A program made the translations under genes and the position numbers. From contig JAFGCU010000115.1 in NCBI GenBank assembly GCA_016932475.1, positions 1 through 32,526 of the forward strand: 32,526 bases of DNA. The letters are read 5' to 3'. Origin of the DNA: Anaerolineales bacterium. Lineage in GTDB: Bacteria > Chloroflexota > Anaerolineae > Anaerolineales > RBG-16-64-43. Under the pieces are notes generated by a model that ran no database searches, was not told the origin of the DNA, and saw only the letters and a program-made list of their open reading frames with translations. Shown here in pieces: positions 11,464-27,048 of the stretch (its first letter is position 1; each line of letters opens with the position of its first letter).

Positions 11464-12216
11464 GTGCCGATCGCCCGAATCATCATCCCCGTCCCCATGC
11501 CGGATTTTCTCTACCGGAGTCTGAAAAGCTTACGCGACCAATTTCGAAAATCGGAGCCGCCGAAACCGGCCACCGCCATCCGCGGGCCGAACCTCGAAGG
11601 CGACCGGGACATCGAATGGACGTGGGTAAGCGCCAATATGCCCGCCGGGCCGGGCCGCGCACTCGATTTCGGGACGGGTGAAAGCAGCCTGGCCCTGGAA
11701 GCCGCCCTGCGCGGATACCGCGTGACCAGCATCGACCTGACCTCCAAAACCCGCTTCTTCGCGCATCCAAACGTACGCTACCTTCAAACGGATTTGCTGA
11801 ATATGCGCCTTGCAAAGGAATCGCTCGATCTGGTCATCAACTGCTCGACGGTCGAACATGTCGGGCTGCCGGGCCGTTACGGGGTTTCGGAAAAGCGCCC
11901 GGACGGAGACCTTGAGGCGATGCAAATCCTGCGCAAGGCCATGAAGCGCGGCGGGAAAATGCTGTTGACAATCCCGGTAGGAATAGACCAGGTATTCGAT
12001 CCGCTCTGCCGTGTTTATGGAAAGAAGCGCCTCCCGAACCTGATCACGGGCTTTTCCATATTAAAGGAAGAATACTGGCGCAAGCGGGGAACCAATCTAT
12101 GGACCCCTTGCTCCCGTGCGGAAGCCCTCGCGTTCCAGGCCAGCGCCGGATCGTGGAATTATCTGGAAAACATATACGCATTGGGGTGCCTGGTCCTGAA
12201 AAAATCCGGCCAGTAA
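11464..12216 (+). CDS. DUF268-like class I SAM methyltransferase
   Basis: The product is 250 residues with a Rossmann-type methyltransferase core: motif I RALDFGTGES (about 65-74), the acidic end of strand 2 at VTSIDL (Asp91), and the motif IV region LVINCSTVEHVG. The following stretch 'GRYGVSEKRPDGDLEAM' and the later 'PVGIDQVFDPLCRVYG' are typical of the DUF268-type methyltransferases, often found with surface-glycan genes. The GTG at 11464 was chosen because AGGAAGG lies about six bases upstream; the in-frame ATG at 11497 has none. An open frame extends to 11233 but runs through a palindromic repeat, so that part is not coding. The acceptor is unknown. Confidence 0.8.
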   Translation: MPIARIIIPVPMPDFLYRSLKSLRDQFRKSEPPKPATAIRGPNLEGDRDIEWTWVSANMPAGPGRALDFGTGESSLALEAALRGYRVTSIDLTSKTRFFAHPNVRYLQTDLLNMRLAKESLDLVINCSTVEHVGLPGRYGVSEKRPDGDLEAMQILRKAMKRGGKMLLTIPVGIDQVFDPLCRVYGKKRLPNLITGFSILKEEYWRKRGTNLWTPCSRAEALAFQASAGSWNYLENIYALGCLVLKKSGQ

Positions 12217-12231
12217 AAAAAGACCGATTAT

Positions 12232-12311
12232 CCGCCAAGACACAAAGATGCAAAAAAGTGTTCCTTTGTGTCTTGGTGTCTTCGCGTCTTGGTGTCTTCG
12301 TGTCTTGGTGG
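12232..12311. repeat. palindromic and tandem repeat (CCAAGACAC type)
   Basis: A left arm cgccaagacacaaag (12233-12247) pairs with ctttgtgtcttggtg (12264-12278) at 14 of 15 bases. The right arm is then repeated with small changes (gtcttggtgtcttcg units) up to gtgtcttggtgg at 12300-12311, which also pairs with the left end. The element lies between the converging methyltransferase and alpha-galactosidase genes, so it could also act as a crude transcription barrier. Confidence 0.75.
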
Positions 12312-12352
12312 TTAAATTATTTTATTTTCAAATTACCGAATCGATAAAGTTA

Positions 12353-21834: not shown

Positions 21835-23169
21835 TCATAGAATCCGGACCTGCTGTACATGCGCGGCAATGACCGCCAGCGTGGTCTCGTCGATGTCGTA
21901 CACCGAATACCAGCCGGGAGTCTCATGGGGCGGATCGCCGATCCACGCGTAGCCCGGCCGGGCTTCCCCCGCCCAGACCCAGAAATTATCGCCCGCCGCC
22001 GGTCCGCCGGCCGCCATCGACGTGTAAACCCGGCCGAACATTTCCCGGTAGAATCGGTCGCGGTGCGTTGTTGGGGAGCCCGGATCGAAGATGTTCTGCA
22101 GCGGCATGTAATCCCGCGCCAGCCCGAATTCCTCCAAGACAAGCGGCTTCTTCATCGTTTTACAATCCCGTTCGGCGTTCGAAAAATACAGATGCGCATA
22201 TGCCATCGCGGAGGTGAAGGTCGCGGGATTTTGCGGCGTGTACCAGCCCCAGTTCTGCGGCCAGATGTGGATGGTGGCGTAATCGATATCGGGGCTGTTG
22301 TGGGTCGAGATAAAATTCTGGGTTCCGTCGGGCAGAGCCCCCTCCGAACCCGTGGTGACCATATGGTTGGAATCGAGCGATTTGATATACGCGGCCGTGT
22401 CGTAGACCCAGTCCAACGGGTAGTTCCGCGGTTCGTTGCCCAGCTCCCAGGAGAAGATGGCGGGGTCTTCGCGGTAGGGTTTTCCGGTGTACGGATTGAC
22501 GCGCTCGGTCAGCATCCGGATGTGATCGCGGTACCAGCCCTGGCACTCCCGGCAGTAATAGAACCGGGCGGAGTAGGTCATGTAATTATTCCAATCCCCC
22601 GGGTAGGGAATTTCCGTATTGTCGCGCCAGGAGACGTACTGCGCCATGCCCCCCGACCAGTGCCAGTAATTATTCAGCACCATTACGGCCTTCAGCCCGC
22701 GCTGGCCCATCTGGTCCAGGAGGTAGTCCAGGCCGTCGAGGACACTTTCGTCGTATACCCCGGGCGAAGTCATCAGCGCCGGAACCATGCGGTAGGGTTC
22801 GGTATTCGGCCCCTCGGAGGAAGCCATGATGCGCAGGTTCGTTATGCCGAGCGACTGCAGCCGGTCCAGTTCCTTCCGGAGCATCGTCCGGTTGCCGCCC
22901 GTGCCGTCGACGGCCAAGTTCATGGCCTGCCAGAAATTCGTGCCGACAAAATAATACGGCCGCCCCTCAAACAGAAAGCGTCCGTCGCGGGCAATGACAA
23001 ACTCCCCCGTCGCGGAGGAATCCAGTGTGGGCGAGGGCTGTATTTCGGGAGCGGCCGCGGATGGTGGACGGCCGATGCCGCCGGCTCCACCCAGCACGAA
23101 CCATCCCAGTGCGATCACCGCCAACAAGATCAGGGTTCCAGCGATGATCAGCCAATTTTTACGATTCAT
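21835..23169 (-). CDS. membrane-anchored GH5 (mannanase-like) glycoside hydrolase
   Basis: The 444-residue protein starts with a membrane anchor (about 6-27) and a Pro/Ser-rich linker (34-52), so the enzyme faces outward. The catalytic TIM barrel shows GH5 hallmarks: acid/base Glu246 in WELGNEPR, nucleophile Glu347 in LVLEEFGL, and YATIHIWPQNWGWY (297-310), whose His-x-Trp is typical of subfamily 7. GH5_7 contains endo-beta-1,4-mannanases, and the N-terminal 'FLFEGRPYYFVGTNFWQAMNL' fits that group. GGAGG lies three to four bases before the ATG. With the GH27 and GH3 genes it may help degrade galactomannan. Exact specificity is an inference. Confidence 0.9.
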   Translation of the reverse strand: MNRKNWLIIAGTLILLAVIALGWFVLGGAGGIGRPPSAAAPEIQPSPTLDSSATGEFVIARDGRFLFEGRPYYFVGTNFWQAMNLAVDGTGGNRTMLRKELDRLQSLGITNLRIMASSEGPNTEPYRMVPALMTSPGVYDESVLDGLDYLLDQMGQRGLKAVMVLNNYWHWSGGMAQYVSWRDNTEIPYPGDWNNYMTYSARFYYCRECQGWYRDHIRMLTERVNPYTGKPYREDPAIFSWELGNEPRNYPLDWVYDTAAYIKSLDSNHMVTTGSEGALPDGTQNFISTHNSPDIDYATIHIWPQNWGWYTPQNPATFTSAMAYAHLYFSNAERDCKTMKKPLVLEEFGLARDYMPLQNIFDPGSPTTHRDRFYREMFGRVYTSMAAGGPAAGDNFWVWAGEARPGYAWIGDPPHETPGWYSVYDIDETTLAVIAAHVQQVRIL

Positions 23170-23230
23170 TTTCCTCCAGGAAGAAGATCGGAAGAAATTA
23201 AATTAACATCTCCCTCACCCGGACTTCGGG

Positions 23231-23356
23231 TTGTAGGGGCGACCCATTGGGTCGCCCCTACAACGGTCGGGTCGCCCCTACAACGGTCGGGTCATCGGTC
23301 GGGTCGCCCCTACAACGGTCGGGTCCGCCCCTACATCGGTCGGGTCGCCACTACAG
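23231..23356. repeat. palindrome followed by 20-bp tandem repeats
   Basis: ttgtaggggcgaccca (23231-23246) and tgggtcgcccctacaa (23248-23263) form a perfect 16-bp inverted repeat with a single base between. Its right arm type is then repeated in tandem: units cggtcgggtcgcccctacaa at 23264-23283 and 23296-23315, a shortened unit at 23284-23295, and variants at 23316-23336 and 23337-23356. The array lies in the gap between the CPBP protease gene and the start of the GH5 gene. Confidence 0.9.
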
Positions 23357-23386
23357 GGGCCAGGTGGCCGGATGAGGGGGGATCCT

Positions 23387-24439
23387 TTATGAGTCTTGGA
23401 TCTGTTTCGTTGTGCTTGGTGCTTTTCCCTGATATTCCGCCAGAGTTTTAGTCAGCGATATTTTTCCGCGGGTGATTTTCACCCACAGGAAGATCAGGAT
23501 GCATCCTAGCAGCATCGCCGCAAGACCGATCAAGCCCCCTTCCGGGCCGAACGCGCCGCCGGTCATCCATTCCGGCCCGCCTTGCCGGATGGCGATGAAC
23601 CGCGCGGCGACCGGATCCAACCCGCTTACGGGAAAACCGAACACGTTCCCCTGGAAAAAATTCCAGGCGATGTGCAGGCCGATCGGCAGCGCGAGTTCGC
23701 CGGTCAGGATGTATCCCAAAGCCAGGAACACGCCCGCCGCCATCAGGTTCAGGATGCTCATGAAGGTGATGTTGGGATTGGCCGCATGGAGCAGGCCGAA
23801 GCATATCGATGAGAAAAAGGTCGCCGCGAAGATCGCCCCGGCCGCGCCGAAGCGAGTCCCCGTCATGCCCTCGGCCATGTTCTTCAACTGGTACCCGCGG
23901 CTGGAGAGTTCCTCCGAAATTCCTACGAGCACAAACATGACCAGCGGTATCAGGATGGCCAGCGGGAAAATCCCGCCGTCTTCGTTTGTCACCAGATAGC
24001 CTTCGACGGTGATCCATCCCGCGCCAAGTTCGAGGGCAAACACGCCGGCCATCAGCGCGGCACCCATCAGCAATCCGAATCCCAGATCCAGCCACCAGCG
24101 GGGGCTGAAGTGAAATCCGAAATCGCTGAATTTGCGTCGGTCCAGGAACCGTCCGGCCAGCCAGACACTTCCGAGGGTGATCAGAAAAGTGGTGAATTGC
24201 AGGATCAGAAGGATATCCGGCCGGTTCATCAGGTCCATAAGCGAGTCGGACGAACCAGGAATTTCCTGCGCCGGAAGCCATCCGGCCGCCACCGCCGCCA
24301 CCAGGAAGAAAATCGCAACGGCTACGCCGATCCCGATCTGCAGGCTCATCCATACGGAACCCTGGATCAGCAGTCTCCACAAAGCCCGCAGGCGCCGTTC
24401 TTTGGGATTCCATAACAGGGAAATGATTTTGTTGTCCAA
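23387..24439 (-). CDS. CPBP-family intramembrane glutamic protease-like protein
   Basis: The product is about 350 residues with roughly eight membrane helices. It has the CPBP (Abi/Rce1-like) motifs: EExxxR as EELSSR (Glu176, Glu177, Arg181), FxxxH as FGLLH (His218), and the second His region GLHIAWN (His256). These residues form the glutamic-protease site in Rce1. Bacterial members are linked to protein processing, signalling or bacteriocin self-immunity. A TTG at 24439 preceded by GGAG is preferred; an upstream TTG at 24502 would add 21 residues but has no ribosome site. The gene stands between two repeat arrays. The substrate is unknown. Confidence 0.88.
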   Translation of the reverse strand: MDNKIISLLWNPKERRLRALWRLLIQGSVWMSLQIGIGVAVAIFFLVAAVAAGWLPAQEIPGSSDSLMDLMNRPDILLILQFTTFLITLGSVWLAGRFLDRRKFSDFGFHFSPRWWLDLGFGLLMGAALMAGVFALELGAGWITVEGYLVTNEDGGIFPLAILIPLVMFVLVGISEELSSRGYQLKNMAEGMTGTRFGAAGAIFAATFFSSICFGLLHAANPNITFMSILNLMAAGVFLALGYILTGELALPIGLHIAWNFFQGNVFGFPVSGLDPVAARFIAIRQGGPEWMTGGAFGPEGGLIGLAAMLLGCILIFLWVKITRGKISLTKTLAEYQGKAPSTTKQIQDS

Positions 24440-24519
24440 GGGATTTTCTCCGAAAAACAGGCGGCGTCTCGAAATCGGCCGACGGAGCCCCAAATCCGAC
24501 AACCGCGCGGCCGTTTACA

Positions 24520-24837
24520 CTATTCTAACTTCTTTTTCAGCGTCCCAAGCAGTTCGGGGTCGAGCTGTTCCACCGCCGCTTTGCCGCCGTCGACGCGGAA
24601 CCGATCTCCGGTGCAAAGTCGATATCCGTGACCGAGGCGGTTCCCAGGACCGAGGCGGTTGCCAGGACCGAGGCGGTCACCACGACCGAGGCGGTCACCA
24701 CGACCGAGGCGGTCACCAGGACCGAGGCGGTTGCCAGAACCGACGCGTTCACCACGACCGACGCGGTCGCCAGGACCGAGGCGGTATTCGTGACCGACGC
24801 GGTTGCCAGGACCGCGTCGGTTTATTCCGTGCAGGAT
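24520..24837 (-). other. start-less reading frame through the minisatellite with a protein-like C-terminus
   Basis: On the minus strand one frame is open for 105 codons. It reads the 18-bp repeats as hexapeptides of the type LGRGDR / LGPGNR and then ends in a non-repetitive tail, FRVDGGKAAVEQL followed by DPELLGTLKKKLE and a TAG. The tail looks like a real helical C-terminus and has better codon character than the other frames. However, there is no ATG, GTG or TTG upstream of the repeats in this frame, and the frame begins inside the last codons of the glycosyltransferase gene. It may be the remnant of a gene whose front part was lost or overwritten by repeat growth. No function can be assigned. 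Confidence 0.3.
24631..24828. repeat. 18-bp minisatellite, 11 units
   Basis: Eleven units of exactly 18 bp lie head to tail, with consensus accgaggcggttgccagg or accgaggcggtcaccacg. The first six units (24631-24738) are nearly identical; units 7-11 drift (accgac instead of accgag, and altered ends), with the last unit only half matched. The unit has no stop codon in several frames on either strand, so long repetitive frames arise by chance. The array overlaps the stop codon of the glycosyltransferase gene at its right end and fills most of the 382-bp gap to the CPBP gene. Confidence 0.95.
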
Positions 24838-26633
24838 TTATAAAACAGGCCGTATACCGGCGCCGCCAGGTACAGGCTCGCCTGCCACAACAACAATCCG
24901 CCGATCAGGTAGGTCGTCGCCGAACGATCCGAGAGGATCAGCACCGCAATCCCCATCGCCAGGCAGGCCGCGCCGATCGCGGCTTCCCATTGAGTGGTGA
25001 AGAGCGCATTCAGGAGGGGAACCCTGCCCATTTTCTTGGGTGTGCGCAGGAAGGCCGCCCGGGATTGGAGCACAGCCCGGATGCTGGCCAGTGCGATCAC
25101 CCAGCCGACGCTGAACATGCCGTACATCGACCGGAAGGCCAGCCCCCAGGAAATCCGGAGCGCGTTGCGCAGCACCCAGCCGAAGCGCCAGATGTTGAGC
25201 GCCATGAAAACCGCCGAAAGCGTGATCAGCGGCACGGTTACCGGCGCGATCGTGAAATCGGCGGAGATCATTTTTATCACCGCCCCGGCCAGGAGAAAAA
25301 CCAGGAAGGCGACGTTGAACGCATCCGAAAACCATTGCAGGCATCCGGCCAGGTAGAAATAACGCTGCGCGGCGGTCAGGCGGTTGGCGGGATCAAGCAG
25401 GCGGGCCCACGGCATCAGCGCTTCCCAATGCTTGCGCAGAATCTGGATGTTGCCGAAGCACCAGCGGAAGCGCTGGCGCTTCAGACCGGCGAAGGTGCAC
25501 GGCATCAGCCCCTGCCCCATCGAGCGGTGGAAGTACTGCGAGGAATACCCGCGCTTGAGCACGCGCAGGCTGGCTTCGGCGTCTTCGGTGATGCACCACT
25601 CGTCCCAGCCGCCGATCTCCCGCAGGACGGCGGCGCGAATCAGCCCCATCGTGCCGGCGAAGATGATCGCGTTGCGTTCGTTGCGCACCGGCATCGGCAC
25701 TTCGAAGAAGTACTCGTAGCTGTGGTAGATCGCCTCCGCCCACGATCCCGGGACGTAATCCCGGTAATCCTGCGGAGCCTGGATGAAGGCGAGGTTCGGG
25801 TCGGTGAAGGCCGGGACGGTTTCGCGCAGAAAATCGGGATTGGCCCGGTAGTCCGCGTCCACGACGCCGATCAGTTCCGCCCGGGGATCGGTCTGCGACA
25901 GCGCGAAATTCAACGCGCCGGATTTGTACCCCGGCCAGTTTTCTATGTGAAAGAATTTATAACGGGAACCCAGTTCGCGGCAGAGCTCCCGGACCGGCTG
26001 CCAGGTTTTTTCCTCCGGGGTGTTGTTGTCCACAACCAGGACTTCGAAATCCGGATATTCGAGCGCCGCCAGCGCGCGTAGGGTTCCGGCGACGATCTCC
26101 GGCGGTTCGTCGTGAATGGGAAGGTGCAGCGATACCATCGGCTGGAAACCCGGCGCGGGTTGGATCCGGGTTACTTGGCGCGGCCAGTGCACGCGGCAGG
26201 TCACCTCGAGGTTTTCGAACATGTGGGTGAGGGCCAGGATGGTGGTGACGAACTGCAGGAAGATAAAGGTCATGATGACGAGGAACGAAAGCGGCGGGAG
26301 CGGGATTGAGAAGGCGACCGTGAAGCTGTACATCAGAAACAACGGGGTGACGAGGATGGTCGTCAACCAAGCCATTTGGCCGAGCGCATTCCAATCCTTG
26401 AACCGTCCGATCCAGATCAACCCGAGGAACACCGCCAATCCGGTAAAGGCAAATACCTCCACCGGGCGGCCGTATATGCCCAGCGCCAAGACGGATCCCG
26501 CCCCAAGGACGACGGTCATCCATCCGAGGGAAAGCAGCGGATGCCGACGCCTCAGCTGCGGGCCGAACAGCAGCGTGGCGGCAACGCTGATGACGAACCA
26601 GAAGGCGGATTGCATCAGAAGCCGAATGAGCAT
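24822..26633 (-). CDS. processive-type family 2 glycosyltransferase (cellulose/mannan synthase-like)
   Basis: The 603-residue membrane enzyme has N-terminal helices (about 5-24, 36-54, 58-76, 88-108 and 112-135), a cytoplasmic GT-A domain (about 160-400) and several C-terminal helices. Catalytic motifs are complete: DAD at 259-261 (VVDADYRANP), TED at 349-351 and QxxRW as QRFRW at 387-391. These are the marks of processive enzymes that build beta-linked polysaccharides and feed them through the membrane, such as cellulose, glucomannan or related synthases. The ATG at 26633 lies 7 bp after the stop of a small membrane protein gene, so the two are probably co-transcribed. The polymer made cannot be told; the nearby mannanase hints at mannan or glucan. 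Confidence 0.9.
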   Translation of the reverse strand: MLIRLLMQSAFWFVISVAATLLFGPQLRRRHPLLSLGWMTVVLGAGSVLALGIYGRPVEVFAFTGLAVFLGLIWIGRFKDWNALGQMAWLTTILVTPLFLMYSFTVAFSIPLPPLSFLVIMTFIFLQFVTTILALTHMFENLEVTCRVHWPRQVTRIQPAPGFQPMVSLHLPIHDEPPEIVAGTLRALAALEYPDFEVLVVDNNTPEEKTWQPVRELCRELGSRYKFFHIENWPGYKSGALNFALSQTDPRAELIGVVDADYRANPDFLRETVPAFTDPNLAFIQAPQDYRDYVPGSWAEAIYHSYEYFFEVPMPVRNERNAIIFAGTMGLIRAAVLREIGGWDEWCITEDAEASLRVLKRGYSSQYFHRSMGQGLMPCTFAGLKRQRFRWCFGNIQILRKHWEALMPWARLLDPANRLTAAQRYFYLAGCLQWFSDAFNVAFLVFLLAGAVIKMISADFTIAPVTVPLITLSAVFMALNIWRFGWVLRNALRISWGLAFRSMYGMFSVGWVIALASIRAVLQSRAAFLRTPKKMGRVPLLNALFTTQWEAAIGAACLAMGIAVLILSDRSATTYLIGGLLLWQASLYLAAPVYGLFYKSCTE

Positions 26634-26640
26634 GAACGCC

Positions 26641-27048
26641 CTACCCGATCCGTTCGAGAAATCGCATCGCCAGCGGAAGCGCCGCAAGCAGCATCAGGGC
26701 CGCCGCCGTCCACACGACCGCAATCCGAATCCATCCCGCGCGTCCGGGCCGGCGCAGCACGGCTATCCCGAGCGCCCATAGCATCGCCGGCGGCGCGAAT
26801 ACCAGGGTGCCAAGCCCGGCGGGCGCCAAACCGAGGAAGGCCGCAAATAGCAGGATGTATGCCGGCGTGAAGGTATGGATGTCCTCCGCGGGAAATGCCG
26901 CCGCCTGATTCCGGTTTTTAGGAACGCGCAGGATCGATCCGTTGCAATCCGAAAGGATGTAAACGTCGCGGTCCTCGCCTTCATATTTCAGAAAGGAGGC
27001 TTGTTCGGGCGATAATGATCCGCGCGGCTTGCGCGACAATTCAGCCAA
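26641..27048 (-). CDS. small membrane protein of unknown function
   Basis: The product is about 135 residues. The N-terminal 60 residues are polar (YEGEDRDVYILSDCNGSILRVPKN resembles a short beta unit), and three hydrophobic segments follow at about 62-77, 80-96 and 106-127. The frame uses a TTG start at 27048 with no close ribosome site, so the N-terminus is unsure. It sits 7 bp upstream of the glycosyltransferase gene on the same strand, which suggests a partner or accessory role in polysaccharide export; this is inferred from position only. Confidence 0.55.
   Translation of the reverse strand: MAELSRKPRGSLSPEQASFLKYEGEDRDVYILSDCNGSILRVPKNRNQAAAFPAEDIHTFTPAYILLFAAFLGLAPAGLGTLVFAPPAMLWALGIAVLRRPGRAGWIRIAVVWTAAALMLLAALPLAMRFLERIG

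Follow-up and report, generated by a model that had tools for sequence, protein, structure and literature searches.

A start-less open frame behind a Chloroflexota glycosyltransferase gene very probably reflects a tandem REP array of an atypical RAYT-associated family

A minus-strand open frame that has no start codon, runs through an 18-bp repeat and ends in what looks like the end of a real protein raises the question of whether a gene, or something else, lies behind a glycosyltransferase gene of an Anaerolineales bacterium. The locus belongs to a stretch of 32,526 nucleotides (assembly GCA_016932475.1, contig JAFGCU010000115.1, positions 1 to 32,526), which is called the window here. Our analyses suggest that the feature is very probably a tandem REP array of an atypical RAYT-associated REP/REPIN family. 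This answer builds on what was observed of the array's anatomy, the dispersal of its core, the predicted hairpin, the linkage to a RAYT gene on contig C85 and the existence of parallel repeat families. The features of the locus are as follows.

24822..26687, minus strand: intact family 2 glycosyltransferase gene (Pfam PF13641; homologue in G003).
24793..24821, minus strand: inverted REP doublet, a REPIN-like hairpin, ACCGACGCGGT-CCTGGCA-ACCGCGTCGGT (doublet search, ssDNA folding).
24631..24821, minus strand: eleven tandem REP cores of 11 bp, ACCGCSTCGGT, in 18-bp register (TRF, core scan, unit table).
24520..24837, minus strand: start-less open frame of 105 aa, judged a by-product of the stop-free 18-bp (6-codon) period (ORF reading, shuffles).
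24520..24606, minus strand: tail DRFRVDGGKAAVEQLDPELLGTLKKKLE, closed by a stop codon, with coding-like codon use; probably what is left of the 3' end of a lost gene (coding score, homologue searches).
23387..24502, minus strand: downstream CPBP/Rce1-like membrane protease gene (Pfam PF02517).

The sequence-only reading had proposed that the frame encodes a protein of LG-x-G-[D/N]-R hexads, loosely recalling a beta-helix and reached by an unusual start or a frameshift, or else a gene that had lost its front to repeat growth. Its description of the frame was accurate. The frame is open over 105 codons and ends in ...DPELLGTLKKKLE; no ATG, GTG or TTG precedes the repeats or lies inside them, the first being a GTG at codon 89, in the tail; and the frame overlaps the end of the glycosyltransferase gene, whose stop codon occupies 24822-24824. 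The length of the open frame and the strong coding statistics of its tail would favour a real repeat protein with a genuine C-terminus, made from a rare start, by a frameshift out of the glycosyltransferase or from a front since lost as the repeats grew, but the start codon is absent before codon 89 and the openness of the frame is itself no evidence of a gene. The array (24631-24821) leaves four of six frames equally open, dinucleotide shuffles mostly leave three or four open, and simulated 11-unit arrays behave alike. An 18-bp period is divisible by three and most units contain no stops, so array frames stay open, and the reported frame is a by-product of that period.

The pattern of variation also argues against a protein. 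Across 51 units from six arrays, 10 of the 11 core positions are near-invariant and the spacers vary; at core position 6, alternation between G and C exchanges Leu and Val in the reported frame but has no effect on the residues of the T-A-S-V frame. Other arrays of the ACCGCSTCGGT repeat in the genome, at unrelated intergenic sites, have different flanks and different frames open or closed. The repeat is thus conserved as DNA and not as a hexapeptide. No Pfam domain was matched in the frame, and neither a homologue nor conservation of it was found among the 60 relatives and 396 class genomes searched. Together with the RAYT link described below, this recurrence and DNA-level conservation leave the hexad protein of the sequence-only reading unsupported, and we regard any version of a real repeat protein here as extremely improbable.

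The glycosyltransferase gene is intact. Its product can be aligned as far as the C-terminal end of its homologue in G003, a genome of the same family (68% identity, query residues 4-620 of 621), and the G003 protein stops at the corresponding residue, with a different gene next and neither array nor tail behind it. The frame was also considered as a C-terminal extension of the glycosyltransferase, a candidate that was rejected since the G003 homologue stops there too and is followed by unrelated DNA. On the other side of the locus, a GGAG upstream of a TTG near 24440 suggests that this TTG may be the true start of the CPBP gene. Between that gene and the ORF at 21835-23169 lies a second repeat family (window positions 23230-23360), in which a hairpin, GTAGGGGCGACCC-ATT-GGGTCGCCCCTAC, is followed by several copies of GGTCGGGTCGCCCCTACAAC; it resembles a GTAG-tagged REP, and a hairpin of the same kind abuts the array on contig C5 (L025). 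Elsewhere in the window, an 8/16-bp tandem repeat (CTTGGTGT / GTCTTGGTGTCTTCGC) with 2.6 copies of the 16-mer at 96% occupies 12264-12310, near the end of the ORF at 12099-12347.

The non-repetitive tail is a separate matter. That the last 28 or so codons resemble a genuine gene end was borne out by their composition. Scored with a codon model built from the window's genes, the 28 codons at 24523-24606 reach a log-odds of +14.0 bits, a value attained by 27% of true in-frame segments, 0.8% of off-frame segments, 0.1% of antisense segments and none of 5000 dinucleotide shuffles. These figures favour a real gene that formerly separated the glycosyltransferase from the CPBP protease and of which the tail is the 3' remnant. 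This proposal is compatible with the REP array; the tail, however, comprises 28 codons only and its homologue searches came back empty. No homologue was found in 60 relatives or in 396 genomes of the class (overlapping sets, about 450 genomes in all), nor in Pfam, NCBIfam or plasmids, and the best PDB match was a weak EF-hand/lanmodulin alignment (E 0.065) that does not carry the EF-hand acidic pattern. The sequence-only reading had itself been staked on such homologues and on conservation of the frame in relatives; both were absent from these genomes, and the G003 locus holds neither array nor tail. We consider the chances of a gene remnant to be about even; the front of the lost gene would have been deleted or have decayed, possibly through insertion or growth of the array. 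The most economical reading of the frame as a whole is that such a remnant probably came to lie, by chance, in frame with one of the four open array frames.

The array itself spans 24630-24822 by TRF, with units matching at 81%. On the minus strand an inverted core, ACCGACGCGGT (24811-24821), comes first and is followed by ten direct copies of ACCGCSTCGGT, of which nine are exact and one differs at a single base; variable 7-nt spacers lie between the cores. The core scan observed 10 exact cores against 0.04 expected. The eleven exact 18-bp units reported earlier therefore need qualifying: the 18-bp array is real, but ten of its eleven cores are exact (nine minus, one inverted), the eleventh has one mismatch and the spacers vary. 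The inverted unit and the first direct unit (24793-24821) are predicted to fold as ssDNA at -14.7 kcal/mol (z -5.0), and the first base of this hairpin is the one immediately after the TAA stop codon of the glycosyltransferase gene. Such a position would suit a hairpin kept for terminating transcription or for protecting the glycosyltransferase mRNA at its 3' end; such a co-opted role would have a precedent, in that REPs affect gene expression in other bacteria (PMC8266576). No U-run follows the hairpin, however, the G003 homologue does without the array, and a search for an RNA element gave sub-threshold Rfam matches only. We therefore consider it unlikely that the hairpin is kept for this role, while it may plausibly have some secondary effect at the 3' end of that transcript.

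The core is not confined to this locus. Pattern searches, from which all genome-wide statistics derive, found 55 exact copies of ACCGCGTCGGT in this genome against 3 for the reversed control. About 20 loci hold it as arrays, isolated copies or inverted doublets, and about 8 further matches, inside genes, look like chance; the extragenic position of the copies was judged by reading. A DNA search of the genome showed that the array recurs on contigs C85 (twice), C5, C82 and C48, and one inverted unit followed by direct units opens both C85 arrays and the C48 array as it does the array of the window. Inverted doublets such as AGACCGACGCGGTCTTAAGACCGCGTCGGTCT, the window doublet included, are predicted to form ssDNA hairpins with z values of -5 to -10. 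Three doublets (L035, L053 and L016, on contigs C6, C46 and C13) were seen to sit within longer, locus-specific palindromes whose flanks pair over 9, 11 and 5 further bases, as if the doublet had entered an existing hairpin or the flank had been copied inversely.

Doublets are also found in other genomes. Exact inverted doublets of the window core occur in 8 of 81 genomes, namely this one and seven relatives (G003, G005, G006, G019, G032, G044 and G056), against 0 for the reversed control. G001, of the same genus, carries doublets with an AGG/CCT core and, among the sites listed, no tandem array. The 18-bp-spaced pattern was detected in 6 of 396 class genomes, with 40 and 37 occurrences by strand here and at most 4 per strand elsewhere, and long 18-bp arrays were seen only in this one of the genomes searched. 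Based on this distribution, the long arrays probably represent a recent, lineage-specific expansion of doublets. The repeat shares with REPs and REPINs a short palindromic unit in many dispersed copies, inverted doublets that form hairpins and a RAYT gene flanked by the repeat. With regard to the GTAG/GGAG foot tetranucleotide, few doublets are preceded by GTAG and most have only ..AG before ACCG, which places the family outside the canonical GTAG REP definition.

The RAYT gene lies on another contig of this genome:

Contig C85, L024:2132-2728, minus strand: RAYT ORF of 198 aa between two C85 arrays (NCBIfam and PDB matches).

Its product matches the REP-associated tyrosine transposase model NCBIfam NF047646 with E 3.5e-16 and 59 bits, which is below the curated 80-bit cut-off, and PDB 4er8 (TnpAREP) with E 6e-6. 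An HUH motif (NHFH) and a Tyr...NP motif with a catalytic-type Tyr are invariant in eight RAYT homologues; the C85 protein reads NHFH, FQ and YIHHNP, and its homologues mostly have YIHQNP. On these sequence grounds it is classed as a predicted nuclease of the HUH/Tyr type and a relative of TnpAREP. RAYT homologues from other Chloroflexota and from Bacteroidota have inverted doublets within about 100 bp or in the gene, and shuffled sequence gave none. The RAYT-linked doublets share one layout, RACC-N5-GGTY, a loop of mostly 7 nt and the inverse, and differ in the 5-bp core. This core is ACCCTAAAGGT in G032, Leptolinea sp. HRD-7 and another Chloroflexota MAG; ACCCGAAGGGT in another Chloroflexota MAG; ACCTGACAGGT in G001 and a Bacteroidota MAG; ACCTCCGAGGT in two genomes of the Anaerolineales order; and ACCTGTCAGGT beside the second RAYT of this genome, on contig C90. 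Of all the evidence that the window array is a REP array belonging to a RAYT system, this parallel in layout weighs most. The pairing is not one-to-one, because some doublet-bearing genomes (G003, G005, G006, G019 and G044) gave no close homologue of the C85 RAYT; in G056 a different RAYT has a window-core doublet about 830 bp downstream.

The parallel families also bear on whether the array could instead bind a regulator, a partition protein or a nucleoid protein at clustered sites and be unrelated to transposition. An 11-bp core that is nearly palindromic, recurs every 18 bp and is conserved where the spacer varies is what such a cluster might look like, but RAYTs are flanked by this repeat and by parallel families with differing cores, inverted doublets are dispersed with locus-specific flanks, and no preference for promoter regions was noticed. 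We consider a binding-site cluster very unlikely.

Further repeats were observed in and around RAYT genes. Some RAYT genes contain REP doublets in the segment that separates the HUH motif from the Tyr motif, at L187:1696-1724, L105:2718-2746 and L197:1708-1736; with their AG/CT feet these doublets measure 33 bp, or 11 codons, and the reading frame continues through them. The RAYT of this genome at C5:33571 is preceded by a mixed ACCCTTAGGGT-type cluster (GGGACCCTTAGGGTCGGGGGAACC...), which belongs to another REP family and is located near 2640-2740 of L169 (G000 C5:31500-36000).

If the feature is a REP array, its history may be sketched as follows. The RAYT, as an HUH/Tyr single-strand nuclease, would bind and cut the ssDNA hairpin and so spread inverted doublets; we infer this cut-and-rejoin route from published work on TnpAREP (PMC8266576) and REPINs (PMC3116915). 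One doublet would have landed directly behind the stop codon of the glycosyltransferase gene, and one arm with its spacer (18 bp) would then have multiplied, through replication slippage or RAYT-mediated re-joining. Multiplication in direct orientation would yield one inverted unit and then ten direct ones. One of the open array frames would by chance run into an unrelated, coding-like remnant. A stronger proposal is that the RAYT builds arrays, adding single REP units directly, after the doublet, at a fixed 18-nt pitch. This is distinctly unlikely in our estimation; if it were true, each array would document repeated rounds of strand joining, and its multiple-of-three pitch would let arrays sit in or next to genes with frames unbroken.

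What appeared to be an orphan minisatellite gene thus turns into a candidate mobile-repeat system. The layout of RACC-N5-GGTY, 7-nt loop and inverse links RAYTs and REPINs across Chloroflexota and Bacteroidota while the 5-bp core changes with each RAYT, and these changes provide a natural data set on how transposases recognise repeats. There is a warning for annotation as well, in that 18-bp REP arrays yield long stop-free frames.

A literal literature search for the cores returned unrelated matches only, as far as titles and abstract openings tell, and no description of 18-bp arrays that open with one inverted unit was found in the REP/RAYT literature compared. Several known systems are nevertheless related in form. 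The GTAG- and CGTC-tagged REP superfamilies are short palindromic extragenic repeats of many phyla, with RAYTs flanked by repeats (Di Nocera et al. 2013, PMC3733652). The present family has no consistent GTAG tag, and whereas CGTC REPs were reported without a RAYT partner, here CGTC lies inside the palindrome and is not an end tag, and a RAYT is flanked by the repeat. Among TnpAREP proteins, subclass 2.6 (RAYT group 5) is found mainly in Bacteroidetes, carries YIH[QN]NP and S-S after the core, and has genes with atypical secondary structures on either side, further copies of which lie at other sites of the genome; subclass 2.4 (RAYT group 4) includes in-frame REP insertions in RAYT genes (Quentin et al. 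2018, PMC6006769). Compared by motifs alone, the C85 RAYT (NHFH, FQ, YIHHNP) departs from the subclass 2.6 consensus (NH[LIV]H, WQ, YIH[QN]NP), and it fits the exact consensus of neither 2.6 nor 2.4. Another parallel is Pseudomonas fluorescens SBW25, which has extragenic, dispersed inverted REP doublets, clusters beside RAYT genes and ordered tandem REP arrays (Bertels and Rainey 2011, PMC3116915). The SBW25 REP core is a 16-mer with doublet spacings of 71 or 110 bp, in contrast to an 11-bp core at 18-bp pitch here, and in its tandem arrays two REP types follow each other in turn, at 112/72 bp, whereas the arrays described here consist of one inverted and many direct units. Like the REPINs of SBW25, however, the doublets of this family are predicted to fold into hairpins, are dispersed and extragenic, and form clusters adjoining a RAYT gene.
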